Positions 17,901 to 41,900 of a stretch of DNA of 64,000 bases are shown here, one piece after another; the stretch's first letter is position 1; each line of letters begins with the position of its first letter. The stretch is from Brachycybe producta (taxonomy: Eukaryota; Arthropoda; Diplopoda; Playtdesmida; Andrognathidae): positions 5,132,233-5,196,232 of the forward strand of contig JAUPFP010000009.1 in the NCBI GenBank assembly GCA_036925085.1. Direction: 5' to 3'. The notes under the pieces are model-generated. The model did not search any database. It was not told the origin of the DNA and saw only the letters and a list, made by a program, of their open reading frames with translations. Made by a program: the position numbers and the translations under genes.

Positions 17901-20900
17901 TTTACGAACATAAACGCGAACAATGGTAATGCAAAAGTGTCAGTGAGTTATCTTTGCTTTTGACATTTTTCAGTTTGTCCAGAATTTCAAACTGAAAACC
18001 ATCGGCTTGGCCACGAGTTCGATTACCTCCATTCATGTAATTTCCGAGTGCCAAGACCAAACCCAGTACTTTCGAGACGTCTTCGAACTTTTACAACAAC
18101 TTGCAAATCATTTTCACATTATTCAATTTGTTCTCAAGGATTGAAATGTTTTCTTGGAATGTCGATTGGAATGGAAAACAAGTGATTCGGTCGGCAAAAT
18201 GTGGAATCTGAGATAGTTCGATTAGAAACTGTTCAGGTCTGTCAACAGGAATGTTGGGATTGGCTGCCATATGGGCCTTTATCGTGTTTAATTCCTCATC
18301 GTCACCTCTCACTTCGTAAATGGCTTGCAAATTGTCCAGGTTCAGCATGGTCGTTTCGAACAGCGTTCTCGACTTCGACAATCTCCAAGTGTGAAGACTG
18401 GCGACGAAGATGCCAACCATCTGCGCCCCTTTACTATCCAATATCTGATCAGCCTGCTGTTTTGTCGGATTCTGAGTTTTGCTTCAAGATGCCAGTTTCT
18501 TTTCGATCACTTGTCTCGAGAACAGATCTATGAACTCATCCAAGTTCTCATCCAGATTGACCTCTTTTAATTTCTCCCAGAAGTTATTTACTTCTGGACT
18601 AGATGACCTTTCTACAGGTTTCGGTATAGATTTGGTTGGAGGCAATTTGGATTCTCGTTCAATACAATCGTTTTATGAGTGCTGTAGGATTGATCGGCAA
18701 CTTCCTCGTCACTGGTTTATTAGATCCGTACCATCCTCCAGGTGGCGGTGGAGGTAAAGGTGTTGGACCAATTGCCCTGGGTTCTAGTGGTGGAAGTCTA
18801 GAACCAAGAGGGCTTTTCCAGGCGGAGGTTCTATTCCTGGCATATGTGGCGGAGGTGGACGTTCCAATCCTGGCATAGGAGGCAGTGGAAGAGGACCCAT
18901 TCCCGGCATCGGAGGTGGCGCAGTTCCATCAGTTGGTGAGAAATCCTCATTTATTCTATTCGTAAGGTATACTGTGTATGCCAATGTTTTGTAATGACGT
19001 CACTCCCGTCTTTTTTTGACAGGCAGTTAGAAATCGAGGAGAACTTCAGTTGGCTCCGCCTCTGTTATGACGACCGGGAACTTCTAATTGGTTTGTTGTG
19101 TGGTTCGACGTTGAAAAGGACGAAGCATGCGACGTCAGACTACATAACCAACCAATTAGAAGTTGCGTTCGTCATAATAATGGCGGAGCCAACTGAAGTT
19201 CTCCCCGATTTCTAACTGCCTGTCTTTTTTTGTTGGCCAAACCTTCGAATTGGTTGAAAAGTTTAAGAGCAAAATTCTTACTCTTATCAACCTCACATTG
19301 CCTGACGTTTTTGATAGATATAAGCGAGCCATTAATCATTCAAGGTCAAACATTATCTTTAAGGTGAACTATTTGACCTTTTGAGTGAAATTGCAATGAT
19401 GTCAGTGACATTTCGAAATTTCTAATGTACAGTAGCTTTAATTTAGAATATGCTATATCATTGTTGTAGCTAGTCTAGTAGTTGACCATTATGATGATCA
19501 CTAGTGGGGTAACCCAGTCATAAATGACGGGAGCCAAATTCACAGGCAATTGCGTCCAGCATTAGAATTTCTTTTCCTCCGCCCTTTTATGACGTCAGAC
19601 CAAGTAACAAACCAATTAGAAATTGATGACGTTCATAAAAGGGCGGAGGAAAAGAAATTCTAATGCTGGGCACAGTTGCCTGTGATAAATTCTAGTTTAA
19701 TTTTGCTACTATTATCCCCTCCCCTTTTTATATTTGAAAGAGAAAATAAGTTTTTCATTTTTTTTTTTGGTGTGCGCATGCGCGTCGTTTGTTTCTTTTT
19801 TACTCTTTTCATTTCAATTTCAGTCACCCCCTCCCATTTTTCCCCCTCCACGTTTCTCTCCCTCCTCTCCCTTTCTACACTTTCCAACCTTTTCCCCTCT
19901 CCAATTTAATATCATGGGGTTCTTGGATGGGGGAGTGTGCAACATATAGTTGACCTTGAGAAAAAAAAGCGGTTCATTTATTCGTTTAAATTTTTATAAA
20001 TTCCGACGTGCTTCAAGGTTTTTGTCCTTGTTTGTACAGCGTTAATCACACACACACACAGACTTGGCTTAATATTATATATATATATATTTGTTAGGTG
20101 TTGAAAAAATAAGTAAAGCAACACCTAACAATAATTTGAAAGAGGGGCAGAAATTAGTAAAAGAGAAAATTAAAATAAAGTAAAAAGAGAAAGAGGCGGA
20201 GCTAGAAAGAGAAACAATGAAAGAGAAGTAAAAAAGAGAAGAAAAAATGAGGAAATAAAAAATGGCGGGAAAGTAGTAGTAAAAGAGGGGGTGGATAAAG
20301 TATGAATGAATCACACCCACACACACACACTCATAGTAAACAGAGGCAAAAAAGGGAGAGGCTGAAAAAAGTAAAAGAAACCCACCCACCCATAAGAGAA
20401 TGACGAAGCAAGAAGAAAGTCAAAGAAAGGGGGGAAACAAAAAAGAAACCCACCCACACAAGTAAAAAGTAATAAAAAGTTTTTAAAGAAAACAAGAGAG
20501 GGGGGAAATAGAAAGACTAAACCCACCCACACACACTTTAGAAGGGTGAGCCCAAATAAGTGTACCATGTTAAATAAAAACTTTTTTACAAAATTAAATG
20601 TAATTAAAGAATGAAAAGAGTGGAAAACATACTATAAAGTGTAATAGATAGATAGATGAAGTGGTTAATTAACCTGATATAATCTGATTACCTAGTGGAG
20701 TGTAAAATAAGAGAAAAGTAAAGTTGAACAATGAAAAAGTTTAAATGTGACACTTAAAGAAGAAAAACATATGGTTTATACTTCATACTCACACGGTAGA
20801 AGACCACCTGTTTTACAAATAATTATGACGTCATTATAGAAAAAAAAAAATAAAAAGAAAGAAGGGATGGAAAAAGTGTAACAAGATACTTTTTACCATA

Positions 20901-23900
20901 CACTCTCTTCAATATGCAAAACAGCAAAGTAATAAAAAGTTTAAAAGAAAAAGTAAAGCACATAACAGGTTCTCAACACATTAAGAAAAGGGCCGTTAAT
21001 AATATATAGAGTATATTGAAGACTATAGAGAGGAAACTTATGAATGAGTATAATGAAATGAATGGAACAATATGTGAAGTCAAACATAACCCAAAAGAGG
21101 TACCGACAAGTAGCGAAAGAGTTGTATGATGTTAGGGTTCTCAACAGAGTAGGGGTAAAAGGGCCAAAATCGTATTTAAATAGAAATACATTTCGGAGGG
21201 CCTAGAAAACCAAATAAAGGAACATTGGGAATGTTAGTCATTCAAATGAAATGTTATGAGTTGCCGAAAACTAAAACTTTCGATGAAAAGTTAAAAGGTT
21301 AACTATACTAATTCATAGAAAATGACGGTTAGTGGAAATAACAGTATGTATCGACGATCGTAAAAAATTTATAAAAAATCCAAATTGTAATTTTACGACC
21401 GGATGCATATTAGGCAGATGTTCGTAGAAGAAGATCAAAAGCCAGTTGACCGATTGGTTATTTTAATTTTAGAAAATTAATTCTAACCAATCAGAATACT
21501 TAAAATTCATTTCTGACTAAACAAGATGCGATGAACATCGTATTCTAGAGAGAGTCCTACATTGGAGTTCTAGAAGAGAGGACATATGTTATAGATTTAG
21601 TAAAAAGAAAGAAGAAAGACCTTAGAAGAAATTTAGAGGATGAGACTTAGAAGAAATTTAAAGAATAGGACTTAGAATTATTTTGAATTGAGTTTGTGAA
21701 GTCATTTGGACTTAGAATTATTTTGAATTGAGTTTGTGAAGTCATTTAGACTTAGAATTATTTTGAATTGAGTTTGTGAAGTCATTTGGATTTAGAATTA
21801 TTTTGAATTGAGTTTGTGAAGTCATTTGGACTTAGAATTATTTTGAATTGAGTTTGTGAAGTCATTTGGATTTAGAATTATTTTGAATTGAGTTTGTGAA
21901 GTCATTTAGACTTAGAATTATTTTGAATTGAGTTTGTGAAGTCATTTGGACTTAGAATTATTTTGAATTCAGTTTGTGAAGTCATTTAGACTTAGAATTA
22001 TTTTGAATTGAGTTTGTGAAGTCATTTGGACTTAGAATTATTTTGAATTGAGTTTGTGAAGTCATTTAGACTTAGAATTATTTTGAATTGAGTTTGTGAA
22101 GTCATTTGGACTTAGAGTTGTTTTGAGTTGAGTTTGTGAAGTGTTTTGAGAAATAAACCTAGGAGTTGGTTTTTCATGTAATTTGGATTTTGAGTCTGAG
22201 ACCAGGAAAGTGTTTTCACGAAGCTATAATTCTCCGAAGACAACAAGAAGCCATCTAAGGTAAGGTTAACAACTCTTGTTATCTTTATTAGGCCCAGTCC
22301 AAGAAAATTAAAAAATTACTACCACTCACTGATAAACTACAAAACCCATTCCCTACATAAGCCTTCATTGGCTGGGAGGGTCGAACCCTAAACCCAATAG
22401 GTACTATTTGGCTGAAAGGGGAATCACAGAACACCACTGTGATAGCCGTGAAAACGGAAACTTACAAAAAGTGGCGCAGTCGACAGGATTAGTTAAAAAA
22501 TCGGTTGGGTGGTTGAATTGTTTTATTAGAAAGTTTTGTGGCAAAGCAATTGGAACATTAGTTGGGGTTTTGGGATGGCAATTTGATTTTTAGAGTGTAT
22601 TTTATTGAAGTGTATTGTCTTTTTCCTATTATTTGGTTGGGCTAAATTTGGATAAATAAAATTAGTTTAAGTTCAATTGGGTTGGATTGATTTTTTTTTT
22701 TTATTTGTTTGGTGTTTAAATAATTCATTAGTTGCTTTGGTTAACAGTTGGGTTATTTTAAAGAAGTTCAGTTGAGACAATTGAGTTGTTTTGAAGCTTA
22801 TATGGTCAAAGTTAATTGAAGTTATTAGATTATGTTGATTGGGATCTAAAAAGTGAATACATGAAAAAATTTTTTTTTGGATTACAGAATAAATTGTGCA
22901 TGCTTACCTTGTTTTAAAATTGATGAACAAAGAGGTTAAAGAAATGAGTATTGAGTGATAGACAGAGTTGGATTAATTTATGAAGTAAAACTGAGAATAA
23001 TTTGCATGTTCTAGGGAGAATTGATTTTTAGAAAGCTGATTGAGATATTTTATGAATTTTAATTGTAATTTTTTAGGGGTGAATTGGAATTGCGATTAAC
23101 ATGAGAAAATTAATTGAATTTTGAGAAAAGTTAATTGATTTGCTTCATTAAGTGTGGAATATCTTATTTGTTAATGTGTGAATTGGCTAATTCAGAAAAA
23201 CTAAAAAATTTTTGGGTTTGGATTAATTAGGGTTATTTGAGGAATTCAACTGATTGCTTATTTTGGAATTAATTATATCAAATAACATTTGTGGCTAAAA
23301 GATACTAGAAGATCTTTCACAACTTAAATGGGATTATTTTCAAAATTTTGAAAATTATTTGTATCTTAATGAGTTTTGAATTTTTGTGTTTAGTATTTAA
23401 TCTTTATTAAAATTGTAGAACCCTGCAAAATATTATTTTTTTGGGTTACTATAGGAGAATTATTGTTTGCAACTAAAACCTTTTTATTTTATGTATCTAA
23501 GACTGTTTTGTTTCATTTTTACCAAAATTGTCGAGGTTTGTCTAGTACAAGAATTGGACTGGACAAACATAGAAATAGCAATCGAAGAGATTGCTTATTT
23601 CTTTATTGCTTTATGGGCAATTAAAGCATTCTGGGGTTAAATAAAAATACTTACTGGTGAACAAAGAAATGAGCTGGAAATTGTTAGTGTATTGTTGCAT
23701 AAAGTTAACTGACTTGTTCTGGTTTAGAGGATTTGATTGGGAGGAGGTAGATATTACTGCTAGAGACCTCATTTATCTTTGTGTTCATCTTATCATGGTT
23801 AAAATACTTTGGGGTTAGAAGATAATGAAATTTGCAAGTCAATTAATGGTTTAATGAAAAAAAAAAAAAAAATTTCTGGAAGATTCTTAGGTTTACCCAT

Positions 23901-26900
23901 ATTGTTGTTGTGAGTGGATATGTTGAGTACATTATTATTGATTTTGATCAAGATTTTTGGGGGTCCTAAAAGATATTAAGTGGCCTATTAAGTGCATGAT
24001 TAAATTAAGTCATATTGCCTGAGTTGTTTTGTTTCAATTGTTTTGCAAATTGTTTTTGTATTGTACTTGTTTTTAAGATTTGCTCCCAACACACATACGC
24101 ACGCTCCCATACAAAATTGCATACGTAATTGCGCATAAAGTAATTAATTGATTAATTAGGTAATCAATTAATGGGCCTTATTAGAGTGTTTGGGGGGATG
24201 AAAGAATCGTAATAATGCTCTTTTCCAGGTTATGGCCGAAGCACCAGAAGACCGTGAACTGAACAATTTTAAACCAGTGTGCAGAGTTTCCCCTAGAATT
24301 ATAACAGAAGAAGAGTACCGAGAGCGACGAGAAAGATTCATCGACGAGGCGGAATTAGCGTATCACTTACTCTTGGCTAACCTAAGACCGTTGGCGGGTT
24401 GCCAGTCGGTACGATTTAGCTTGCCGTCTCCGGTGAGCCCAACACCGAGTTCAATACCAAGTCCGATACCAAGTCCGGTACATTTTTTGGAGAGTGGAGT
24501 GGCACAATTTTATCTTCACGGAACTCCAATCTTTAACGTGAGATCGGATCTTGCTGGTTTCATCGCACCTCCTTCGTCTCCCGTGGAAAGAGAACCACCG
24601 GAGCCACAAGACGAACAATTGGCAGACGACGGATTGCCATATCACGTTTAAAAGGTGATTATATATGTAAGGTTAAGAAAATTTGTTTATGGATGAGTGC
24701 ATGTTGCAGGACATTTGCATATTACCCTGGTGCCCATTAAGACCAGAGTGTAATATCATTGACTTGAGTGACATTGATGTTATTTTTGTATGTACTACAC
24801 ATTTGAGAACATTTGAGGGTGCCGAATATAATATTTGGATGAATGCTAGAGAATTAATTGTTTCCGTCCACGATTTATGGCAGATATTAGATGGATATTC
24901 CACTGATTTTGTAGGATTTGAAATATGAGTTTTGTAAATGAATACGAGGTATCCTCAACCAATGATTTTGTATGCCCTTATAGTAATATTTGCTTCAGAG
25001 CTCCAGATTTTTCAGACAATTCATATATGTGGAAGTGTATGAGCCACAATTACCTGTTTGATATTAGAGATTACCCATTTGTTGCACTAGGAAGACCTGG
25101 ATCAAACAATGTAGAAGCAAGTATAGAATATAGTGAATTTTGTGAATATATTGGACAATTTATCATACATCCAAATCTGGTTGAAATCAAAAACTTTTTC
25201 AATAGCAGGAATTGAGAAGAAGTAAAGATTATGTGTAGAAAAAAAAAAATCTTTAGTAAGTATAACTTGTCCATTTAGTTTAAATTGTGTTTTTATTATA
25301 AAGAAAAGAGATAATTTGGTGAAGTGTGTTTGTCATCTTAATCATTTTCAAACTGAATACATTCAAAGTAATCGTGACTTGAAAGATAAGTTGGAAATTT
25401 TATCAGTAAAAAAGCATGAACTTAGAAGACACTAGTAGGAACATACCACAGTGCCCAATAGGTCCTTATTGCATTGTAAGATTTTTTCGAGAAAGTGGTC
25501 GAGTTAAGTGTTTTGTACATGATACCTGGTATCAGACAGAAAAAATCCCAGAGAAAATTATAATTAAAGAGACAAGTAATTTGAAGTTGAAGGTAATAAA
25601 GGAAGAGGAAAAGAAAGAAAGTTAAGATATTTAGTATGAGTGAGGATTATCAAACGAATAGGTTACAGTGCCCCATAGGACCAGATTGTATTACTAAGTT
25701 TCATCGATCTATAGGACGGATTGAATGCCTCACCCATAAATTCTGGTATTTACCTGCAGATTACGTATACAGGTGTGCTAATCAAGGTTATTTCCCGATA
25801 CAAGCTGTTGTTGATTGTACTGATCAAGACACTGAGGAAGACATTCGAAGAATAATTATAAGTAGATGGGAATCGTGTCCTTATGCTAGGAATTGTGCCT
25901 TTGTAGCCATCACACAAAACGAAGCTCCAAGGGAATTCCAGTGCATTATACACGGAACAGTAATTAATACTCTTTTTAACGTAATCCATATGTAAAGAGG
26001 GTATGGACTTAAATGTATTACCATGGTGTCCTATAAGACTTAATTGTGTAATAATTGATAGAAGAAACATAGATAACACATATGCTTGCCTTACACACCA
26101 AAGAATTTTTCAGATAGAAGAATACGAAAATTGGCTTCAAGTTAGAACATTATTGACAACACTAGGTGAACTATTGCAAGATATATATAGCTTTTTCATA
26201 AGAATAGAAGAAGAAGAAAGTGTATAAAGAATTCCAGTTATAGACAGAAAATATTATGGTTTATTAATGAGTGATATTTAAAGGGTATGGATTTAAGCAT
26301 ACAAAGGAAAAGGGAACGAGATGCCAATAGATGTCCTTTTGGGAAAAGTTGTAGTATAGTACACGAAGATTTTCAAGAATTTGTAACATGCGAAGTCCAC
26401 AACGTAAATTTTGCATTTCCTGAGTATCTATACATGTGTGGTATAAATCCTAATGTAAACAGAGTAATTTTTGAGACTAAGTGTAAAAGTCCCTTAGAAG
26501 AACTTCAGTTATTAACAGATAGAATTGGTAATCATTGTCCATTGCATGACGAATGCTTTTTTGTCCTAGTTTCACCAAAAACTTGGCCTAAACAGTATCA
26601 ATGTGCAGTTCATCAAAAGATATTTAATGAACATTTGGGAGTATAAAAAATAAAGGAAAAAAGCGTGTTTGTTTGAATTCTTAATAAAATGAGTGTTGAT
26701 TTAGAATTATTACCATGGTGTCCCTTAAGGTTTAGTTGTGATATTATTGATTTAACAGAAATAGAGAACATTTATGTGTGTCTCACACATCATAGAGCTT
26801 TTCAAGTAGAAGAATATGAACTTTGGCTTCGTGTTAAACAGTTGTTAACCTCATTAAATGAATTATTGCATGAATTAGATGAATATTCCATAGAGTCAGA

Positions 26901-29900
26901 AATAGATATTGACCGATTTAGATAAAAGTTTTATTGTCAGAAAATAATTTAGAATAATGAGCGAGAATTTTAGTGATCAAGATAAGGTTTATAGGTGTCC
27001 TGAACTAAAAAATTGTTTCAAAACACAGTGTCACCATCATAGACAAGATTATAGGTGGAAGTGTGTTACACATTATAGGCATTTTGATAAAAGAAATTAC
27101 CCAGAGATAGCATTTGGGAGAGTTGCATGTTCATATGAAAAAGCAGTTAGAGAATTGATAGATTTTAATGAGTATTTGTCCCGCTTAGGTCACCCCGCAA
27201 AAACACAGGAAAGAATAGATTTTTTCGTACAAAGAGACTTAGAAGGGGAAGATTAAAGATTAAAATTAAAAGTTGTTTGGAAATTAGATGGAAGAAGACA
27301 AAATGGCTTCCAATGATGGAGAAGTCGGTAACTCCAATGGTGGTGCAGAAGGTAACGCAAATACGAATCTTAACATGCATCACACAGGGTTAATACCATA
27401 TTTTTCTGGGGATGAAAAAGGACCATCCGCCAAAGAGTTTTTTGAGCAAATAGAAGGTGTAGCTAATTTAGCAAGATGGACAGAAGAGTTCCAGATCATT
27501 CTGATAAAATCCAAGTGCAGAGGTCCTGCTGCGGAATTTTTCAGAGATCATCCAAGCATTAGACAGATAAACTCAATTGAAGAGTTAAAAGCGTTGATGA
27601 TACAAAGATTCGAGCCAATCGAACCTAAGTTGGTATCAATGCAGAAGTTTTTAGAAGAAAAACAGAGCAACACGGAAAGCGCTATTGAGTATATTTCCAG
27701 AGTAAAGACCAGAGGAAGAGCCTTCACCGAGGAAAATCCCAGTGCCGACCAGATAGCAGTCAGAGATGGGATGATACAAAATCAAATCATCAAAGGATTG
27801 CATCCAAGAATAAAAAGATTTGTACTTTCACGGAATCCTGCTGATTTGAACGAAACAATCAGAATCATTCTAGCGGAAGAAGAAAATGAGAAGTTGGTTC
27901 ATGCGAAATATGGAATAAATGTGCTAGAGACGATTACTGAAGAAAAGGAGATGCTGAAGAAATTTGAAGAGAAATTAAAGCAATTGGATGCTCAGAGAAC
28001 AAAAGACATTGCAGTATTGGACCAGAAGTTTCAAGAAAAAATAAAGGCTCAAGAGAATGCCAAGAAAGAGGAAGGAAGTAATCAAAGGATGGATAAACGA
28101 AATGTTGAATGTTTCAGATGTCACAAGAGAGGACATTATGCTAATGAGTGTTGGTCAAAACCAACAATTCCACAGCAATGGAGAAATCCGAGTTACCCAC
28201 AACCAAATTGGAATCAGCCACAAGCTTTTCAGCCTAATGGTAGAGCTCCTAATTTTGGAAATACACAGAGAAATGTGCAGATTGAAAGGCAGAGAGGCCA
28301 AGGATGTTATAATTGTGGGAAGATGGGTCATTATGCAAAGGATTGTAGAATGAAACAAGTCCAAAGACAAAGTGAACCCATAGTATGTTTTAAATGTGGA
28401 AAGCAAGGTCATTTTGCAAATGTTTGTAGATTAGGAGCAAGACAGAACCCAGGGAATCAGGTTCGAAGAAATCAAGCAAATGGTAGGACGGAAAACTAGA
28501 AACTCCTTCAAAGAATAGAACGCGTCAATGGGGGAGAATGTATGAAAACCGCGTCACATTAAACATTCTGAATGACACAACATGTCCTATCTTTTTAGCT
28601 CAGTCGAAAAACAATCTGATAAAGATTCTATATGACACAGGAGCAGGAATATCGATAATTTCCAAATCCTTATTTGAAAAGATAAAAGGACGGAAATCAC
28701 GAGATATAAAGCCTATCACTGATCAAGCTAAGGTTATAATTACCACAGCGAATGGTACACCGTTTCGTACAAAGGGATTATATGAAATACCCGTACGTAT
28801 TACAGCAGAGAAAGTGGAAAAGGTTCCTTTATACGTGAGTGCAGAAGATTTGCCAAAGAAATATCAGATGATTTTCGGCATAGATGTGATAAAGCAGTTA
28901 GGATTAACATATGAACCCTTGCTTGATGTAATTGGTTATAATGGGATGAAAATTAAGACAAGAAGTTTAGAGAAAAATGAAATGATTAATATGTTGCAGA
29001 AAAAGGGAGATAAAGAATGGATATTAGAAGTAGTAAGTAAAACGGAGACAGAGAATCAGAATCAATTAAGAAAATTTTTGGAGAAAAATGATGATATATT
29101 TGCATGTTCACTTAAAGAACTGAAACCGACACCTGTTGTTGAACAAGAAATCCACATGGTGGATCAAGTTCCAGTTTTTATACGACCATACAAGTTGCCA
29201 CAGAAATCAGAAGTAGTTATGAAAGAGAAAATTGATGAGTTATTAGATGCAGGAATAATTAGACCATCGTTAAGTCCTTACTCAGCACCGTGCATGCTTA
29301 TAGGAAAACCAGATGGGAGTCAAAGATTAGTTGTTGATTATCGAGCATTGAATTTAAAGGTTGTTAGTGATAAATATCCATTACCAGAGCTTTTAGGAGT
29401 AAGTAATCAATTAGGAGAAGCTGTTTATTTTTCTACTTTAGACATGGCAAGTGGTTTTTACCAGATTCCCATAACAGAAGAAGATAAAGCAAAAACAGGT
29501 TTTAGTACACCTTTTGGACACTATGAATTCAACAGATGTCCAATGGGACTAAAAACATCTCCAAGTGTATATCAGAGACTTATGGATAATGTATTAGGTG
29601 ATTTGAAAGGGAAAATTTGTTTTGTTTACATGGATGATATTATTGTATACAGTAAAACTATAGAGGAACATTATGAAAGGTTAAATTTAGTGTTTGAGCG
29701 ACTTAGAAATGCAAACTTAAAAGCAAAACCAACAAAATGTTTGTTCCTACAGAAGGAAATAAACTATCTAGGACATACATTTACACAAGGGAAATTCCAA
29801 CCAGGTGGAAAGAAAGTAGAAGCAGTAGAAAATTTTCCGAGACCAACAAGTGTCAAGAAAATACAAAGTTTTGTGGGATTAGTAAACTTTTATAGAAAAT

Positions 29901-32900
29901 TTATTCCAAATTGTGCAAGTTTAGCAGGTCCATTAACAAAGTTGTTAAGTAAAGATACTCCATTTCTTTGGACAAAAGACTGTGAAGAATCTTTTCAGAA
30001 ATTAAAAGGATGTTTGATTACATATCCAGTTTTGATAATGCCAAATTTTGAAAGACCATTTTATTTGACTACTGATGCAAGTAATGAAGCAATCGGGGCA
30101 ATCCTCGAACAAAAGATTGACGGTCAATTACACCCAATATCTTATGCGAGTAGGAAGCTCACCAAATCAGAACAAAATTATTCTACGACATGGAAAGAGG
30201 CATTAGCATGTGTTTATGGTGTAAATTATTTTCGATATTACTTGATGGGAAGAAAGTTTACTCTTATCACAGATCATCAACCATTAAAATACTTGATGAC
30301 TATGAAAAAAGATAAAGCTATGTTAACTAGATGGGCATTACAGTTACAACAATATGATTTTGAGGTTTTATATAGAAAAGGTAAAGAGAATACTAATGCA
30401 GATGCTTTGAGTCGAAATCCTGTAGAAAGCAAAGAATTAAATGTGTTAAATGAACAAGAAACTTGGGAAGAACATGAGGTTGCTAAAGATCAAGAAAATT
30501 GCGAAGAATTGAAATCTTTCATGGAATGTTTATATGGTTGTCCAGTAGATAAAAAGGTAAAAGAAAAAGTTGATAAGTTGGGTTTAGAATTAAATACAAA
30601 AGGTTGGTTAGTAAAAAGATCCGAAAATAAATTAAGAACTGTAGTCCCTTTGAGTAAAAGAAATTATGTGTTGAAAATGTGTCATGATAATATTACAGCA
30701 GGTCATTTTGGTATTGAAAAAACAACAAGCAAAGTTGCAGACAGATTTTATTGGGAAACTTTAAAGAAAGATGTGAAACAATATTGTGAAGCTTGTGTAT
30801 CGTGTAATCAGAAAAAGATTCCACATGGGAAAAGTCCATTATGTAAGTTCCCAGCACCATCCAAACCATTTGAAAGAATTGGAATGGATATACTAGGTCC
30901 TTTACCTACTACACAGAATGGAAATAAATACATTGTAGTTATTTGTGATTATCTAACAAGATACCCAGAAGCATTTGCTATTCCAGATCAGAAAGCTGAA
31001 ACCATTGCAAATTTGTTAGTAAGAGAAATTATTTCACGGTATGGTAGTCCCCAGACTCTAATAACAGACAGAGGTGCAAACTTTATGTCTGAACTTATGA
31101 AAAGTCTGTGTGAGACATTCGGAATTAAAAAGATTTTTACGTCAGCATATCACCCGCAAACAGATGGTTTAGTTGAGAGATTCAACAGGACACTAACAAC
31201 AATGTTATCACATTATGTTGATAGTTCACAAAGAAATTGGGATGAGGAACTTCCATTAGTATTGATGGCATATCGTAGTGCGATGCATTCAAGCACTAAG
31301 GAGACACCTTATTTTTTATTGTTTGGACAGGATATGAATTTACCATTTGATTTAATAGGAGATGAACCTCAGCCAGTGTACAACACTGAAGACTATGGAA
31401 AGGTAGTGGCAAATAGGATGCAGAAGATACATGATATAGCAAAAGAGAGTTTAGAAAAATCAGCAGAAAATCAAATTAGATATCAAGGAAAGAAAAGAAA
31501 AAATAAAGGAATACAAGTAGGTGAAAAAGTATATTTGAATGTACCACAAGTAGCACAAGGTAAAACGAAAAAATTAGCGAAGTTGAACAAAGGTCCTTAT
31601 CGAGTCATTAGACAAACGTCACCTGTTAATTTTGAGATAAAGCACATGTATAGACACAAAGATGTACAAATAGTTCATGAAGAGAGATTAAGAGTAGTAA
31701 AAGGAAAAAATCCATGGGAAAAGATTGAGGACTGTACAGAAAAGGTGAAAGAACCTAAAGAACAAAGCAGAAAAGGCAAAAGGCCTAGTGAATCGAGTAA
31801 TTCAAGTTCAGATGAAGATGATGAAGACAATGCAGATAAAATTGATTATTGTTGTGAAAAGGTACCTACAGTAAATACTAAGACACCTAAGGGAATTATT
31901 CGGAACACAGAAGCCGTACCCAGTACTAGTGGTTATAATTTACGAAGTAAAGGTTCCATACAGTTTGCTACGCCATTACCAGTAAGAACAAGAAGAATTA
32001 CACCTAGGACAGAAGTATTACCTAGACTACCAGATCCACCTAGAGTTGAACCAGGCGAATCTGAAGATGAAGGAGATTTGAGTTTAGCAAGGTTACGTAA
32101 AAAGTTGCAAGAGATATTGAATAAAGGAAATTCTAGGGATACCCAAGAGGAAGATAGACATCCTCCAAGTATTTCGGAATCCCAAGAAATTAGTGCATCA
32201 GAAGAAGAAATTCAGAGTGAACAGGATTCTATAGTTGAAGAAGATACTAGAAAAACTGGTCAAGAAGAGCCAGAAGATAATGTAGCAGGACAATTGTTAG
32301 ACAAGATGTTTAAATTAGTAAGTGTGATAGAAAGAATGAGTAAGAAATAATTCGGTTAAGGTAGTCATTGAAAGGAAAATGATGAAAAAGTTATGATAAA
32401 TAATAGAGATTTTGAGAAAAAATGTTTGAGTTTAGATTAGCGGACAAAGTATTGATATTGTTAATGAATTGTTAGACAACATGACATTGAGTTAGCTTAT
32501 CTATATTTAACGACTAATGAGTAAAAATGAATGGTTTATTGAATTAATGAAGATAAAAAGATGACAGAGAAATAAGAATAATTAAAGCATTAATGTTAGA
32601 CGACGGACTGTCTGGAATAATGAAAGAAGAAAATTAGGAATTATTAAAGCATTAATGTTGGACAATGGACTGTCCGGAATTAAGAGAAATAGAAATAAGA
32701 GTGATTAAAGCATTAGTGTTGGACGACGGACTGTCCGGAAATAAGTAAAAGAAAATAAGAATAATTAAAACATTAATGTTGGACGACGGACTGTCCGGAA
32801 TTATGAAAAGGAAAATTAAGAATGATTGAAACAGTAATGATAAAAAAATAGTGAGTGTTGAGAAAATAAGTATATTTTGAAAAGAGAGTATAGAAATAAA

Positions 32901-35900
32901 ATTGAATCAAAGAAGTTCTCATTAAAGATCTAAGCTAGGAAAATAATTGTTGTAAAGCAACAAAGGCTAGTAAAGATTGACAGATTATGCTAAAGAAGAA
33001 TTTAATAGAAATAGTAGAAGCTTAGGGGGCAGGAGACCCACTACTAATGAATATAGGAAGAAGAGATTAATGAAATTGAAATATTGTTTGTAGGAATTGA
33101 GATTTTGTTTTAAAGAGTTTGAAATTGTTGTTTAAAGATGTTGAGGAAATTGATTAACTATTTGTTATAAGTGTATAATGATTTGGTTTTAGGAGATGAG
33201 AAGTTTGTTTATTTCAGATAAAAGGAAGAAATGGCGTTCGATAAGATGATTGGAATTTTGCTGTTGTGGACGATAGCAGTCACGGGACAGGAATATTACG
33301 ACATCGAAATTTGTAATTGGAAGAAAGGTGAAAAGGTTTGCAAAGAAGCGGTTATAAACAGTCCGGAACCGTATTCGGATAAAATGTGCCCGCAAAATGG
33401 TTGCAGAGAATGTATGGTTAAATGGGTTACAAAATTAATAAGTAAAGAGGGAAAAAGCGAATCAGCTGTAGAATTTCAAGTTAAGCAAACAGAAGAAACA
33501 AATGGTAACAGTGAAATGTATAAGTGCCAAAATAGAGGAATGCCATGTAGTTGTGCTAAAAATGATACTTGTTCAGGAACAGAACAATATTGCAAAAGCA
33601 CAAGAAAATGCGCAAGTAAGAAGACAGAATGTCATTGCGAAATAGTTCGAGCAAATACAAGATTAATACATGTGAACAAAAAGGGTATTGAATCAGAAGG
33701 ATTTGAAATAATATCTTATAGAGAATGTTACTTCAACACATCTGAGTTAAAATATGGAAGGAAAAGAAAACGTATTGGGCGAAATTTATTGGGAATGGAT
33801 ACGTTCAAAATTGAGGAAGGGGTAAACTTCATCAAATTTAATGATCCCGTCATAACAGTAAGTGCAGAAGGCACAGTTATAATTAGAAAAGACGGAGTAG
33901 AAAGAAGTTTACATGTGGGAAAAAAGAAACAGGTTATTATAAATCCTGAATTTGGTATGGAATCTGGTACCCTTCATATCATCTTCATTTCCACAGAAGG
34001 TCATATGATGGAAGGAAAGTTCCATATTGAAGGTAAAGATATATGTCACAGATTAAAATGTGTTTTATGTTATGAGTTTGTCTATAATATTCAATGTATG
34101 CCAACATATCTAACATATGCTATAATCATATTATTGATGTTAATGACTAGTATTGTTGTTTTATATATCAAAGCAGTGTTGAAATCATTATGGAATTTAT
34201 TATCTTGGTTTATTATGTGTTCATTGTTTATATATCGTATTGGTAAAAAGTGTTTAAAGGTATCTATGGTTATTGGTGTCGCTAGTGGTCGATCCGTAAA
34301 AAATAAAGTCAAAAAGGTTAAAGATAAGTATGATGATTTGGAAACAGGTACTTTATCAAGAAATAGTATCCTGAGTCCAACAGTCATTACTATAATAATT
34401 TTGATAGGATTTTTATTAAGTTTGGTTTCAAGTGCACAAGCGAAATGCACAGAACATAAAATGATAAAATCACAAATTACTGAATGTCAAGAAACGAATC
34501 AGGGACAAAAATGTTCCCTAGCCACATCAATACAGGTAACTTTAACCAATTTAGAGTATACTGCATGTTTATGGCTAACTGATCATCAAGAAAACTATGT
34601 TGCAAGTGTTGAAATAAGATTTGAAAGTGTAAATTGTGAATGGCGAACGGAAAGATTATACTATACATTTCCAACCGAGCTATTCACTTTAAATCAAATT
34701 GCATGTCCTCAAAATAAGTATTGTGGATGGGGAGATCATTGTCACCCAGATTACAAATTTGAATTGTTAACTAAAGAAGCTTTAGATTGGCCAGGAGTAA
34801 CAGATTGTTTTCCAGGTGATTCTGGAACTTCATGTTTTATTGCCAGTAGACAACCATGTCATCATTTCCGATGGTATTTGAAACCTGATTATAAAAATGT
34901 ATTTGAAGTAAGAAAAATTTCTAGTATGAAGTGTCACCCTAAAATAATATTGACTATTAAGAATAATGATACTGAGACAAAATATGCAATCCGGTCGGCA
35001 AAAGAAGTGCCCGATCAAATATATGTTGAAGTAGTTGGAGTTTTTGATCAAGCAACTGATATTATTTCCAAGCATTTGATAATCAAACATGGGAATGGGT
35101 CAGAAGCTTATTTAGATACAGCTGCAGAATTCTCAAGACCCTATAGAGGCCAAATTGGGGATGTACAAGCTGGTGAAGCAATATCAAAGGATTTTTATTT
35201 GATAAAAGAATGGTAGAATGTAGTTTCTTTGAGTCACGAATGACTTGTACGAAACAACAGTCATATCTAGAATTAATGATACAAAGTAAAAGGAATCTAA
35301 TACCTATGGCATTAACGAATCATAAAGTGTTTGTTGACAAAGAAGGCCGATTGAAATCTTCTTTAATTGTATCTAGCCCAGCAGTAGTACATTTAATAGT
35401 AGAAAACTATCAGGTCATATTAAGTACAGTTCGAGTGTGTCCCCGTATATTAAGAATAGTAGCTCATCAGGGGTGTTATTCTTGTTCAATATTAGCAGTA
35501 TTGCAAATTGAAGCAATTAGTACATGTTTTCCAGGAACAGTAACAATTACCTTTGAAGACATACCTATGAGTACCAGAGCTCTCACTCTCACTACTAGTG
35601 CCAAAATATATGATATACAGATACAGATTAGTAAAAAATGTATTTCCGATAAAGTGTGTTTACAATCGCGAGTTGGAGTGTCGTGCGAGAAATTTGAAGG
35701 ATGCTTCGAAGAACCACAGTTGAATCTTCAAAGAACTTTCGATGCTCGTGTTACATCTGTTGGAGGATATTCTCCAGGCGACGAATTTACGTTCTCATCA
35801 ATCTTTCCAAACTTTTTGGGAAGCTTGGGATCTATGTTCTACGCTCCGTTCATGATCGGACTAAGTATATTAGGATCATGTTTTGTGTTTTCATGTGTGC

Positions 35901-38900
35901 TCAGCATGATGCGAATGAGATAACTGTACTCATCTTTCACTATGAAACAACAGTGAAAGGGAGAAGACTATTTTCTCAATATTGCATCTATAATATACAT
36001 CGAGAAGAATTATCTACAACAACGATACTGTAGAAGTTGTGACATTTTACCAGGTGATAAAATCTGTGAAAATGTACCAAAAAAGACTTCTAAAACAGTT
36101 TAAAGAAAGACATCAAAGAAAAGATCAGCACATGACATCACACAAAAAGATGAACATGGATGATTTCTAAACATCATAAAGGTTGGAAAGAAGGAAAAAA
36201 TTCAAGACATCAGAGATGAAAAGAATCAAGACATCAATGAAGAGAGAATTCAAGACTTCTGAGAATAATTAAGAGAAGACAGCAGATGGACAGCGTGGAA
36301 GACCACAGGAATCCATATGATTAAAGGCATCACGAAGATATGAAGATGACCAAGTGTGATGGCACGAAAGACTGAATTTCTGAACTTATTTGTGAGTAGA
36401 GACTTAATGGAAATAGTGTGTTTTTAGATGTGAAATTTAAGGTGTTATTAGGTTAGATTTGATGGTTAGGATGTAACATTTTTGAGAGTGAAGAGTGAAG
36501 GGAAAACATAGAATAATTTGAAAATAGAATTGGTACAGTAGAAAAATGAAGAAATTAATGTCCAATGAAGAGTGAAGGGAAAACATAGAATAATTTGAAA
36601 ATAGAATTGGTACAGTAGAAAAATGAAGAAATTAATGTCCAATGAAGAGTGAAGAGAAAACATAGAATAATTTGAAAATAGAATTGGTACAGTAAAGAAA
36701 CAAAGATGAAATTGATGTCGAAGGAAACAAGAAAATATGTGAACTTTATATATAGAACATAGAATGATGTTGCTTATAAACTAGTATTATATTAGTAGTA
36801 TCCTGATTATCTAACAAAAACAGGGCTTATTTTAATATTACTTATATATTATTGGAGATATCCTGTCGACTATATAATTGTATCGACTGTGTATCCGGTC
36901 GACCATATAACCAAGCAGAAATTATGCTAATACCTATGTAACGGTTGGCTAATGAAGTAGTATCCTGTTGACAAAGCAAAAGTAAAGTGAAGAGAAAATA
37001 GGAAACATGATGTAAAAGGGTATATCCTGTCGACAAAATAATGGAAGATAATCCTGTCGGCTAAAGGAATACTAAACAAAAAACAGCAATGATGACAGAA
37101 TCATATTGGTGAGACGTAAAGTCTTAATGATCCAATGAAAATTGATTCGGAAGAAATTCCCTTGCATAAAATATCACAAAGATGATAGCAAGAAAATCTG
37201 AGCTGACTTAGAAATCATACAAGATATGATTATACACACTTAATAAACATAAAGTTAATTAAAGGGATTGAAAGGGATTTTGTATTGACATTGATAAAGA
37301 GAAGTAACATTTTAGGGGGTAGGGATGTTAGGTGTTGAAAAAATAAGTAAAGCAACACCTAACAATAATTTGAAAGAGGGGCAGAAATTAGTAAAAGAGA
37401 AAATTAAAATAAAGTAAAAAGAGAAAGAGGCGGAGCTAGAAAGAGAAACAATGAAAGAGAAGTAAAAAAGAGAAGAAAAAATGAGGAAATAAAAAATGGC
37501 GGGAAAGTAGTAGTAAAAGAGGGGGTGGATAAAGTATGAATGAATCACACCCACACACACACACTCATAGTAAACAGAGGCAAAAAAGGGAGAGGCTGAA
37601 AAAAGTAAAAGAAACCCACCCACCCATAAGAGAATGACGAAGCAAGAAGAAAGTCAAAGAAAGGGGGGAAACAAAAAAGAAACCCACCCACACAAGTAAA
37701 AAGTAATAAAAAGTTTTTAAAGAAAACAAGAGAGGGGGGAAATAGAAAGACTAAACCCACCCACACACACTTTAGAAGGGTGAGCCCAAATAAGTGTACC
37801 ATGTTAAATAAAAACTTTTTTACAAAATTAAATGTAATTAAAGAATGAAAAGAGTGGAAAACATACTATAAAGTGTAATAGATAGATAGATGAAGTGGTT
37901 AATTAACCTGATATAATCTGATTACCTAGTGGAGTGTAAAATAAGAGAAAAGTAAAGTTGAACAATGAAAAAGTTTAAATGTGACACTTAAAGAAGAAAA
38001 ACATATGGTTTATACTTCATACTCACACGGTAGAAGACCACCTGTTTTACAAATAATTATGACGTCATTATAGAAAAAAAAAAATAAAAAGAAAGAAGGG
38101 ATGGAAAAAGTGTAACAAGATACTTTTTACCATACACTCTCTTCAATATGCAAAACAGCAAAGTAATAAAAAGTTTAAAAGAAAAAGTAAAGCACATAAC
38201 AGGTTCTCAACACATTAAGAAAAGGGCCGTTAATAATATATAGAGTATATTGAAGACTATAGAGAGGAAACTTATGAATGAGTATAATGAAATGAATGGA
38301 ACAATATGTGAAGTCAAACATAACCCAAAAGAGGTACCGACAAGTAGCGAAAGAGTTGTATGATGTTAGGGTTCTCAACAGAGTAGGGGTAAAAGGGCCA
38401 AAATCGTATTTAAATAGAAATACATTTCGGAGGGCCTAGAAAACCAAATAAAGGAACATTGGGAATGTTAGTCATTCAAATGAAATGTTATGAGTTGCCG
38501 AAAACTAAAACTTTCGATGAAAAGTTAAAAGGTTAACTATACTAATTCATAGAAAATGACGGTTAGTGGAAATAACAGTATGTATCGACGACGATCGTAA
38601 AAAATTTATAAAAAATCCAAATTGTAATTTTACGACCGGATGCATATTAGGCAGATGTTCGTAGAAGAAGATCAAAAGCCAGTTGACCGATTGGTTATTT
38701 TAATTTTAGAAAATTAATTCTAACCAATCAGAATACTTAAAATTCATTTCTGACTAAACAAGATGCGATGAACATCGTATTCTAGAGAGAGTCCTACATT
38801 GGAGTTCTAGAAGAGAGGACATATGTTATAGATTTAGTAAAAAGAAAGAAGAAAGACCTTAGAAGAAATTTAGAGGATGAGACTTAGAAGAAATTTAAAG

Positions 38901-41900
38901 AATAGGACTTAGAATTATTTTGAATTGAGTTTGTGAAGTCATTTGGACTTAGAATTATTTTGAATTGAGTTTGTGAAGTCATTTAGACTTAGAATTATTT
39001 TGAATTGAGTTTGTGAAGTCATTTGGATTTAGAATTATTTTGAATTGAGTTTGTGAAGTCATTTGGACTTAGAATTATTTTGAATTGAGTTTGTGAAGTC
39101 ATTTGGATTTAGAATTATTTTGAATTGAGTTTGTGAAGTCATTTAGACTTAGAATTATTTTGAATTGAGTTTGTGAAGTCATTTGGACTTAGAATTATTT
39201 TGAATTCAGTTTGTGAAGTCATTTAGACTTAGAATTATTTTGAATTGAGTTTGTGAAGTCATTTGGACTTAGAATTATTTTGAATTGAGTTTGTGAAGTC
39301 ATTTAGACTTAGAATTATTTTGAATTGAGTTTGTGAAGTCATTTGGACTTAGAGTTGTTTTGAGTTGAGTTTGTGAAGTGTTTTGAGAAATAAACCTAGG
39401 AGTTGGTTTTTCATGTAATTTGGATTTTGAGTCTGAGACCAGGAAAGTGTTTTCACGAAGCTATAATTCTCCGAAGACAACAAGAAGCCATCTAAGGTAA
39501 GGTTAACAACTCTTGTTATCTTTATTAGGCCCAGTCCAAGAAAATTAAAAAATTACTACCACTCACTGATAAACTACAAAACCCATTCCCTACATAAGCC
39601 TTCATTGGCTGGGAGGGTCGAACCCTAAACCCAATAGGTACTATTTGGCTGAAAGGGGAATCACAGAACACCACTGTGATAGCCGTGAAAACGGAAACTT
39701 ACATATTAAGCCAGATCTGTGGGTGTGTGTGTGTGTGTGTGTGTAACAAAATTTATATAAACGGAATTTATATAAATTTAAATAAATGAACAGCTTTTTT
39801 TCTCAAGGTCAACTATATGTTGCACCCTTTTCATCCAAGAACCCCATGATGTTAAATTGAAATGAAATCCTGAGTGTAAAAGGAACAAACGACGCGCATG
39901 CGCACAATTGCCTGTGAATTTTGCCCCGTCATTTATGACGGGTTACCCCACTAGTATATATATAATTGTTGTAGCTAGTCTAGTAGTTGACTGTTATCAA
40001 GATCATCGCATTTTTTTTTGACTGGTGTTGTGTACTATTTCTATGACTTACGACTTTCATTTCTTCAGTAATTTGGCATTTTGGTTGATTTCAAAGGAAG
40101 TAAATGAGATTGCATGGGTTTGTATCTTTGTGCGAGCGTACTGTACCAGGTATTTTACAGGATTGTTTGTTGAATCTTGACATTTCTATTGATTTTTTTC
40201 CCCCTCTCATCCACAAGCATTTGCTCTTTTTTTTAGACTTTTATACTATGAAGTAGTTTTTTTTTGGGGTGTAAAAACATCAATTGAGTAGGCTACTAAT
40301 CAGTAGCAATTGAAAAGCACACGTTATTGAACTGACATAAAGAATGGTATAAAAATGACGTCATTTATAGTTCAGCTAGATGATTTCTGAGGCTTATTGT
40401 GATCTTAGGACCTATTCTAACAACAAAATAGAAGGTTTCAATTTTGTTACAGATTTAAGTTTGTTATTAAAGTTGAGAATGTATATATATAAGAAAAAGT
40501 GATAAGAGAACCGTAAATTAATTATTTTTAATCTTGATTTAATTCATAATTTAATTAAAGTTCATTTTTTATTTATAATTTGAAGGACTTCATGCAAATG
40601 CATTCTGAAACTTAAAGAAAACTCACAAAAGCAGTCATTTTAATATAATGTGCATGTTATTGACAGAATTTTTTTTTTGACGTTTTTCAATATCCTTGTC
40701 TTAAGTACTTGATATCTTTGCCGGGTTCGTTCATATTTACAACACGTTTTGAGGATTTTTTTTTTTTGGATTAGTTTATTTGAAAAGAACTTGGCTTTTT
40801 TTTTGTTAATAGTCTTTTGTACGAATTTAGGACTATGAAATTTGGCGTAATAGAAAATGGAACAAAACCTATTATCTGTAAAGAAAACAGAAATTTAGTG
40901 TCGGAAACAAGTTGATAAAGTTTCTGTAAAAAAAAAAACTTGTCTGGTAACCATGCTAGCTCCACTTACTCTTCTCTGGACCTGCTTTTTAAGTGATTAT
41001 TTGTGCCTTTTAGGCGTTGTTTCCACTGGGGCAAAAATTTTAACTTTTTTAAAATTTCAACTGGTGATAAATAGAATAAACGTAGTCCTCGCCTATGGAG
41101 GGAGGAGGGCCACGTTTGTTCTATTCTTCAGCAGTTGAAATTTTCAAAAAATTTAAATTTTCACCTCAGTGGAAACAACGAGCAGTTGGACAATATAATA
41201 TCACTAGTAGGAGAAAAGGAATCCAATACGACGACAAATAACAGAACAAACAGGGTCTCCACCTGTTTACTATCGTCGTTTGGTTCCTTATGTTAGGCCA
41301 ATTGAAGTGAGAAAACCACACTAGCTCTACCACTTTAGCTAGATGTTAAATTGCCGGTTCTCATTGATATTTACATCGAAACGGCGTTATTTTTCTGTAA
41401 AAACTCTAGTTAAATATATCCTAAATATAATAAAAAAAATGCATTCATTTATCTGAAATGGTGAATAATTTAAGAAAAATCAATGTGAAAACACCAAAAC
41501 GCAGAAGAAGAAAAAAAGACGGCGACCACAACGAAATAAGTGGTTTAAATTTCAAACGAAATCCAACTGGTTGAAAAGTTGAATAATTTTGTTTTCTTGA
41601 GGACGTTCTGGCCGCCATCTTTCTTATTTTTTTCGTTTTCGTGTTTTTTTTCACCGATTTTTCTTAAATTTTTTTAATAATGCATTTTAATTATATGGAG
41701 AATGTATTTAACTACAGTTTTACGCAAAAATAACATCGTTTGAATGCAAATATTGATGAAAAATGGCTATTTGTCTAGCTAAAGTGGTAGAGCTAGTGTG
41801 GTTTTCGCACTTCATTTGGCCTAACAATGAACCAAACCATAATAGTTAATAAGCGGCGGCCACGTTTGGTCTTAGTCGCCATATGGAATTTCTTTTCTCC

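Follow-up and report, generated by a model that had tools for sequence, protein, structure and literature searches.

Why should a retroelement carry, directly in front of its gag gene, a row of eight small open reading frames (ORFs) that all share one pattern of cysteines and histidines? The question arises from a 64,000-nucleotide stretch of the genome of the millipede Brachycybe producta (assembly GCA_036925085.1, contig JAUPFP010000009.1, positions 5,132,233 to 5,196,232; hereafter the window), in which positions 20092-39703 are occupied by a long terminal repeat (LTR) retroelement of 19,612 bp and of Ty3/gypsy type. An earlier note, made from the letters of the window, had described in this element a cluster of paralogous mini-genes at 24689-27256, with eight intact ORFs, one broken one, and 11 Cys/His modules. 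The ORF list and a six-frame scan bear out this count, and the description as paralogous mini-genes of a retroelement likewise holds. We report that the array is an accessory gene region of a Ty3/gypsy element lineage, not peculiar to the window's element, and that it is under purifying selection. As to what it does, we lean, with slightly more belief than doubt, toward accessory, zinc-module, host-directed proteins made from a polycistronic RNA.

Counted from their ATGs, the eight ORFs (69-119 amino acids, aa) lie head to tail on the plus strand, before gag, and show three types in alignments. The A/E/G type consists of ORF A (79 aa, 24689-24928, one module, acidic), ORF E (74 aa, 26003-26227), and ORF G (78 aa, 26689-26925); the B/H type of ORF B (96 aa, 24925-25215, one module) and ORF H (99 aa, 26957-27256); and the C/D/F type of ORF C (69 aa, 25416-25625, one module) together with ORFs D and F (119 aa each, 25636-25995 and 26287-26646, two modules each). 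Between B and C, at 25268-25336 on the same strand, lies the broken ninth member, an out-of-frame remnant that has no in-frame ATG in the window copy; its module type, c, is a distinct subfamily that is intact in other elements. ORFs A and B overlap by four bases (ATGA), an overlap also present in one of the related elements described below (L038). The gap between B and C is 200 bases and contains the broken module, the following gaps are 10, 7, 59, 42, and 31 bases, and another 31 bases separate H from gag. Ten modules sit within the eight ORFs and the eleventh is the broken one, all of the form C-P-x4-C-x(12-15)-C-x2-H; the form given in the earlier note stands, but its spacer range of 12-16 narrows to 12-15. 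Scanning all six frames of the window for C-x5-C-x(10-18)-C-x2-H returned the 11 array modules and nothing else, and the CP form of the module occurred in none of 60 second-order Markov simulations of the window.

The array is not confined to this one element. Protein searches of the genome (295 Mb were searched for copies and relatives) returned 103 matches for G, 91 for H, and 96 for D, a good number of them 30-50% identical, and among the part of these whose surroundings were read are four further element families (L037, L038, L039, and L053) with a module array directly upstream of gag. The four were compared with the window's element by array, gag, and pol, env having been read in the window's element. 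By tblastn, they share 54-58% identity with it in gag and 75-84% in pol. The array proteins are about 26-56% identical between families, more diverged than pol and than gag, for which the range is 54-63%. The number of module ORFs ranges from two to eight per element (two to seven in the four further families), and in four of the five families each array ORF has its own ATG and its own stop. L037 reads leader, F-like, B/H type, an A+B fusion ORF of 200 aa, c, D, an extra ORF, F, and gag; L038 has an upstream B/H-type ORF, then leader, A, B, c, C, a Bcl-2-like ORF, E, an extra ORF, F, and gag; L039 has leader, B/H type, A, c, D, an extra ORF, F, and gag; and L053 has only B/H type and c before gag. 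B/H-type modules are thus present in five of five families, c-type modules in four with the broken one in the window, and F-type modules in four, the first module of F in L038 having four residues instead of five in its first loop.

Four other loci (L040, L041, L042, and L054) are degenerate relatives. In the F-type ORF of L040, one ligand His and two prolines of the module are gone, as expected of a dead copy, and L054 is a relic, as are three loci on contig 1 between 8.77 and 9.74 Mb (L050, L051, and L052), where G/H fragments lie in a larger repeated unit that is about 88-92% alike among the three. The arrays of L037 (3722-4171) and L038 (5260-5541) share an extra ORF that contains the stretch ERDWDLQ and ends in a basic C-terminus. 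The leader ORFs of L037 (1257-1949), L038 (2627-3463), and L039 (956-1306) begin with a different Cys/His pattern, KCPWx3C...H-x3-C, and two of them share the ending GLNGPFYMxDGFCFYLP; the leader of the window's element has neither.

In a tree built from 36 modules of the five families on 43 columns, for which the program warned that columns were few and branches long, members of several types cluster across element boundaries: c (98/89), F (97/95), the first modules of C/D, F, and c together (99/99), second modules (94/90), and B/H (93/76). The tree thus backs the B/H, F, c, and C/D+F+c groupings and leaves the A/E/G rows without resolution, so that the three families of the earlier note stand in the alignments but only partly in the tree; profile comparisons between module types gave modest similarity. 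Since the types group across elements, several of them must predate the split of the element families. As to the repeated block duplication that the note had proposed, its history is older than the window's element, with B/H found in all five families and c and F shared among families.

In cross-family alignments of nine, six, and seven sequences, with a mean column identity of 40-51%, the first module never varies at its four ligands; if columns are taken as exchangeable, all four would come to lie in invariant columns by chance with a probability of 7e-7, 2e-4, and 2e-4, respectively. The impression that Cys, His, and Pro are kept as linkers diverge is confirmed by these alignments. For pairs of ORFs with more than 33% identity and a computable synonymous rate (dS), the ratio of nonsynonymous to synonymous rates (dN/dS) was 0.22-0.74 for A/E/G, 0.16-0.52 for B/H, 0.30-0.66 for c, and 0.16-0.87 for C/D/F, values that are rough because dS is mostly above 1 between families. 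For gag it was 0.11-0.14 in three of six pairs, the others being saturated.

Copies of the window's element itself tell the same story at a shorter range. Counting the window's own, 16 places match the whole array with 98-100% identity, and a further one matches most of it; the search of the genome gave 38 rows in total, fragments and diverged copies among them. Twelve loci, of which L001 is the window's own copy, were read for ORF integrity. Among loci with a match, A is intact in 10 of 10, B in 7 of 11, C in 10 of 11, D in 11 of 11, E in 8 of 12, F in 11 of 12, G in 12 of 12, and H in 8 of 12, and a strict filter found the c-type module in 9 of the 12, five of these nine having an in-frame ATG upstream. 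Pooled over the eight window ORFs, the ratio of nonsynonymous to synonymous differences per site (pN/pS) against the window was 0.25, 0.19, 0.32, 0.15, 0.32, 0.13, and 0.29 in L002 to L008, and 0.39, 0.68, 0.31, and 0.35 in the diverged copies L046, L047, L048, and L049, of which the last two cover part of the array only. The ratio is therefore below 1 in all 11 copies compared (range 0.13-0.68). Fisher tests of the four diverged copies gave p values of 3e-7 (L048) and 7e-6 (L049) for the most diverged pair of them, 0.006 for L046, and 0.42 for L047; the copies share history, so neither these results nor the ratios are independent of one another. The earlier note had thought selection likely and had named a ratio near 1 as what would speak against it; such a ratio did not occur, and together with the conserved ligands these values uphold its view.

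The module signature indicates that the mini-proteins probably bind zinc. A structural model of G, made from an alignment of G with no sequences other than its paralogues in the window, reached a mean predicted local distance difference test score (pLDDT) of 83.5 and shows strands at 19-22, 28-31, and 36-39 followed by a long C-terminal helix from 40 to 77. In this model, ligands 11 and 17 precede the hairpin, 31 stands at its end, and 34 follows it, which fits a single zinc site holding the hairpin. No Pfam family, zinc-finger families included, scored above its cut-off for any of A-H, and no described accessory family was matched in a protein collection that gave nothing for the gag control either. 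A weak profile match to the APLF-type PBZ zinc finger (PDB 2kqb and 2kuo; E 0.04-0.17) falls near the first two cysteines. PBZ fingers are spaced C-x5-C-x6-H-x5-H, and all 11 modules end in C-x2-H after x12-15, so we rejected this identity. If the array is real accessory biology, its proteins are a family that Pfam does not know. In every element read, proteins of the A/E/G type have an isoelectric point (pI) of 4.1-4.7, a value that speaks for protein partners.

How so many ORFs might be expressed was approached with splice sites scored by an approximate matrix, and what follows is prediction only. A candidate donor, AAG|GTAAGG (score 10.7), lies in the 5' LTR at 22260-22261 on the plus strand, and a strong candidate acceptor (score 12.1) would place the first exon bases at 24229-24231, immediately before the leader ATG. 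An acceptor before the L039 leader scored 9.7, that before the L037 leader was seen by eye and lies below the threshold, and no acceptor was scored upstream of the L038 leader. The candidate intron from LTR to leader spans the primer-binding site, so the spliced mRNA would not be a genome. Inside the window's array, no acceptor was scored and no donor/acceptor pair is present. For ORFs so tightly set and in part overlapping, the simplest reading is polycistronic translation, the mini-genes probably being translated serially from one RNA.

One family has added a gene of another kind to its array. The ORF at 4540-5013 of L038 is Bcl-2-like (Pfam Bcl-2, 25.6 bits against a cut-off of 31.4, E 1.9e-5), and a profile of six Bcl-2-like ORFs searched against structures found BOK as its best match (E 1e-4); the 60 of 81 matches that were listed are all Bcl-2-family proteins. 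Relatives of the ORF elsewhere in the genome make up 150 rows. Context was read for three other loci, L043 (21.3 bits, below the Pfam cut-off), L044 (42.6 bits, above it), and L045, which adjoin ORFs that look, by eye, common to all three. The element at L045/L055 encodes an A32/FtsK-like packaging ATPase (PF04665, 8.4e-9) and an rve integrase (PF00665, 5.8e-16) with a chromodomain, besides further ORFs of Polinton-like character, and this combination of a retroviral-type integrase with an A32-like ATPase marks it as Polinton/adintovirus-like. Two L055 ORFs scanned for PolB and double-jelly-roll capsid gave no Pfam match, and a YTDTDS stretch was seen there by eye only. In a tree of 21 Bcl-2-like sequences, rooted at the midpoint only, the L038 clade, with five rows, stands as a single group (100/100) among the others; L038 and L040 were read in their element context, and the other three adjoin array-type matches. 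This suggests a single capture of the gene from Polinton-like DNA elements, the direction being indicated by the greater diversity on the other side of the tree. L045 also holds two diverged tandem ORFs (815-1291 and 1298-1792) in one Polinton-like element, both related by tblastn to the L038 ORF, with no Pfam Bcl-2 match for 815-1288, and beside the Bcl-2-like ORF of L043 a RING-finger ORF lies on the minus strand (2264-2533; PF13920, 45.9 bits).

The element that carries the window's array has an LTR at either end. Its 5' LTR (20092-22466, TG...CA) and 3' LTR (37326-39703) are 99.87% alike over 2,378 columns and differ at three gap positions only, so the insertion is young. They are flanked by a TATT duplication (20088-20091 and 39704-39707), and each contains a 40-bp tandem array (21508-22287 and 38745-39524). 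A candidate primer-binding site, TGGCGCAGTCGACAGGAT, follows the 5' LTR at 22472-22489, and a purine-rich tract (37314-37325) precedes the 3' LTR. On the plus strand, the leader ORF (139 aa, 24232-24651) has no known domain in a Pfam scan; gag (403 aa, 27288-28499) has three zinc knuckles and a Retrotrans_gag match of 20.4 bits, under the cut-off of 24.1; and pol (1270 aa, 28538-32350) encodes reverse transcriptase, RNase H, and integrase above cut-off, preceded by a protease at 27.6 bits, just under its cut-off of 28.2. The gene order gag, protease, reverse transcriptase, RNase H, integrase is that of Ty3/gypsy elements (Metaviridae), as are the TG...CA LTRs with a 4-bp target duplication (4-6 bp in this group). 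Between pol and env (32561-32839) are direct repeats that recur about every 60 bases. The envelope ORF (33231-35216) is of the phlebovirus type, within a Ty3/gypsy element: it matches the phlebovirus G2 fusion domain at 86.2 bits (cut-off 22.9, E 2.7e-24) and G1 at 23.3 bits (E 2.6e-5, just below the cut-off of 25). A Pfam scan of env at E<=0.1 gave these two only and no baculovirus F-type envelope, so an errantivirus or insect endogenous retrovirus is rejected by envelope. A 237-aa ORF with a hydrophobic end overlaps the end of env (35210-35923) and has no Pfam domain above cut-off. ORFs adjoining the element, judged by eye, resemble neuropeptide receptors and glucosylceramidase.

What, then, is the array for? 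Gag, pol, and env suffice for an infectious cycle; the faster divergence of the array proteins, their variable number, the acidic types, and the captured gene form the pattern that host-directed accessory genes show, and the array and the Bcl-2-like gene seem to be functional tools for coping with the host. Under this reading, each mini-gene would give a small protein with one or two zinc modules and a type-specific tail, and the modeled module would consist of two knuckles, C-P-x4-C and C-x2-H, around a short beta hairpin. The LTR exon would be spliced to the leader ORF, and the mini-proteins would be translated one by one from that RNA. By analogy with complex retroviruses, they would most likely act on host proteins, overcoming defense or controlling the state of the cell, and not in particle building. 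New functions would come from copying and divergence of mini-genes and from capture, as of the Bcl-2-like gene. A bolder form, plausible to us but somewhat short of probable, is that an invertebrate Ty3/gypsy lineage has turned into a complex retrovirus with a phlebovirus-like envelope, an expandable polycistronic arsenal drawn from a new superfamily of zinc mini-proteins with several subfamilies, and a Bcl-2-like gene captured from Polinton-like DNA viruses of its own host, its array being a birth-and-death locus of an arms race in which each protein blocks a different defense. Several observations weigh against host-directed accessory proteins made from one RNA. The host-directed role is read from context, as no relatives of the array proteins are known. 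Fast divergence can also reflect weak constraint: one pair has a dN/dS as high as 0.87, the excess is not significant for L047 taken by itself, a number of young copies have just 3-8 differences of each kind, and 4 of 11 copies of B, 4 of 12 of E, and 4 of 12 of H are broken or partial. The model of D is poor (pLDDT 53.6). The c-type proteins (pI 8.3-9.8) and the D and F proteins of L037 and L039 (pI 8.5-9.6) are basic, which fits nucleic-acid binding. A donor-like site lies inside ORF D at 25773, isolated acceptor-like sites occur inside array ORFs of L037, L038, and L039, and the depletion of ATGs in the leaders is suggestive only.

The basic types lead to the main rival, that the mini-proteins bind the element's own, very long RNA and serve in its export, in translating its many ORFs, or in its packaging. 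The modules are zinc-knuckle-like, and an element 19.6 kb long that has a candidate intron would have to export unspliced RNA; Caenorhabditis elegans Cer1 is reported to encode an RNA export protein (PMC10309623). Yet the A/E/G types are strongly acidic in all elements read, and the window's own D and F have pIs of 5.7 and 6.3, so that the RNA-binding role raised in the earlier note is not favored for all types. Gag zinc knuckles, moreover, are spaced C-x2-C-x4-H-x4-C, unlike the modules, and we regard this rival as rather unlikely. We give still less weight to transcription or chromatin regulators that act on the LTR, with its 40-bp repeats as possible binding sites, since the acidic types and the lack of any DNA-binding domain above the Pfam cut-off in A-H speak against them; in their favor are the repeats themselves and the small protein made from the MDG1 sORF1, likewise encoded before gag, which resides in a subnuclear compartment (PMC11952523). 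That the ORFs are exons of one or a few spliced multi-module zinc proteins could draw on the A+B fusion of L037, the two-module D and F, and the one donor-like site in the window's array, but the separate ATG and stop of each ORF in four families and the missing donor/acceptor pair make it very improbable. Decaying passengers, i.e., a host or viral gene fragment duplicated in the element without function, would account for the broken members in some copies, the relics, and the residues lost in L040. This idea is largely refuted, and we believe it least of all: all eight ORFs are intact in the window and most remain so in young copies, none of the copies compared reaches a pN/pS of 1, the ligands are conserved, and the array recurs in five families.

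Invertebrate LTR elements are usually pictured as gag-pol with env optional. If host-directed accessory proteins are indeed what the array encodes, then some invertebrate elements have evolved layered sets of host-interaction genes independently of the complex retroviruses of vertebrates, and the locus would offer a natural experiment in accessory gene birth by duplication, a natural test of multi-ORF translation from a single RNA in animal cells, a case of gene passage between DNA viruses and retroelements within one genome, and a set of small candidate antagonists for host-defense research. Complex retroviruses add small, fast-evolving accessory proteins, some of them zinc-binding, to gag-pol-env, and the millipede elements are like them in having several small fast-evolving proteins beside these genes. 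The two differ in that no homology was found, and that the window's array lies before gag, not around env, and was expanded by duplication.

Other comparisons rest on sources available to us in part. Bdelloid rotifer LTR elements capture foreign ORFs common to several element types, but these are single ORFs and encode enzymes (GDSL, DEDDy) or a paramyxovirus-like env (PMC5408684). Insect endogenous retroviruses, or errantiviruses, are Ty3/gypsy elements with env, some subclades of which splice a short pre-gag exon to env; their envelope is of the baculovirus F type, and the accessible text describes no pre-gag Cys/His array (PMC12992720). The closest parallel is the MDG1 group of Ty3/gypsy elements (412, Mdg1, Stalker), in which two pre-gag ORFs, sORF1 and sORF2, are translated, with peptides detected, and show low nonsynonymous rates, the full-length RNA giving no evidence of splicing (PMC11952523). 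The earlier note had known of no pre-gag accessory arrays in Ty3/gypsy elements, and this pair of sORFs corrects it. Like them, the window's array consists of small accessory ORFs directly before gag, on the same strand, and under purifying selection. The MDG1 ORFs, however, are two, one described as helix-turn-helix and the other as resembling a membrane fusogen and having an N-myristoylation motif, and they belong to elements without Env (PMC11952523), whereas the window's element has Env and up to eight paralogous Cys/His ORFs. The model of G, with strands and one long helix, and the poor model of D were set against the helix-turn-helix of sORF1. Identity with the FAST-like sORF2 was rejected: the N-myristoylation start MGxxxS/T is missing, none of A-H beginning with MG, a start that is also reported absent in Stalker1/2 (PMC11952523). 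Within the literature searched, as far as these partial sources reach, no array of paralogous Cys/His mini-genes, none spread over at least five families, and none mixed with a Bcl-2-like gene is described. Measured against them, the pre-gag accessory location is known, and the array of paralogous Cys/His mini-genes that fills it here is new.

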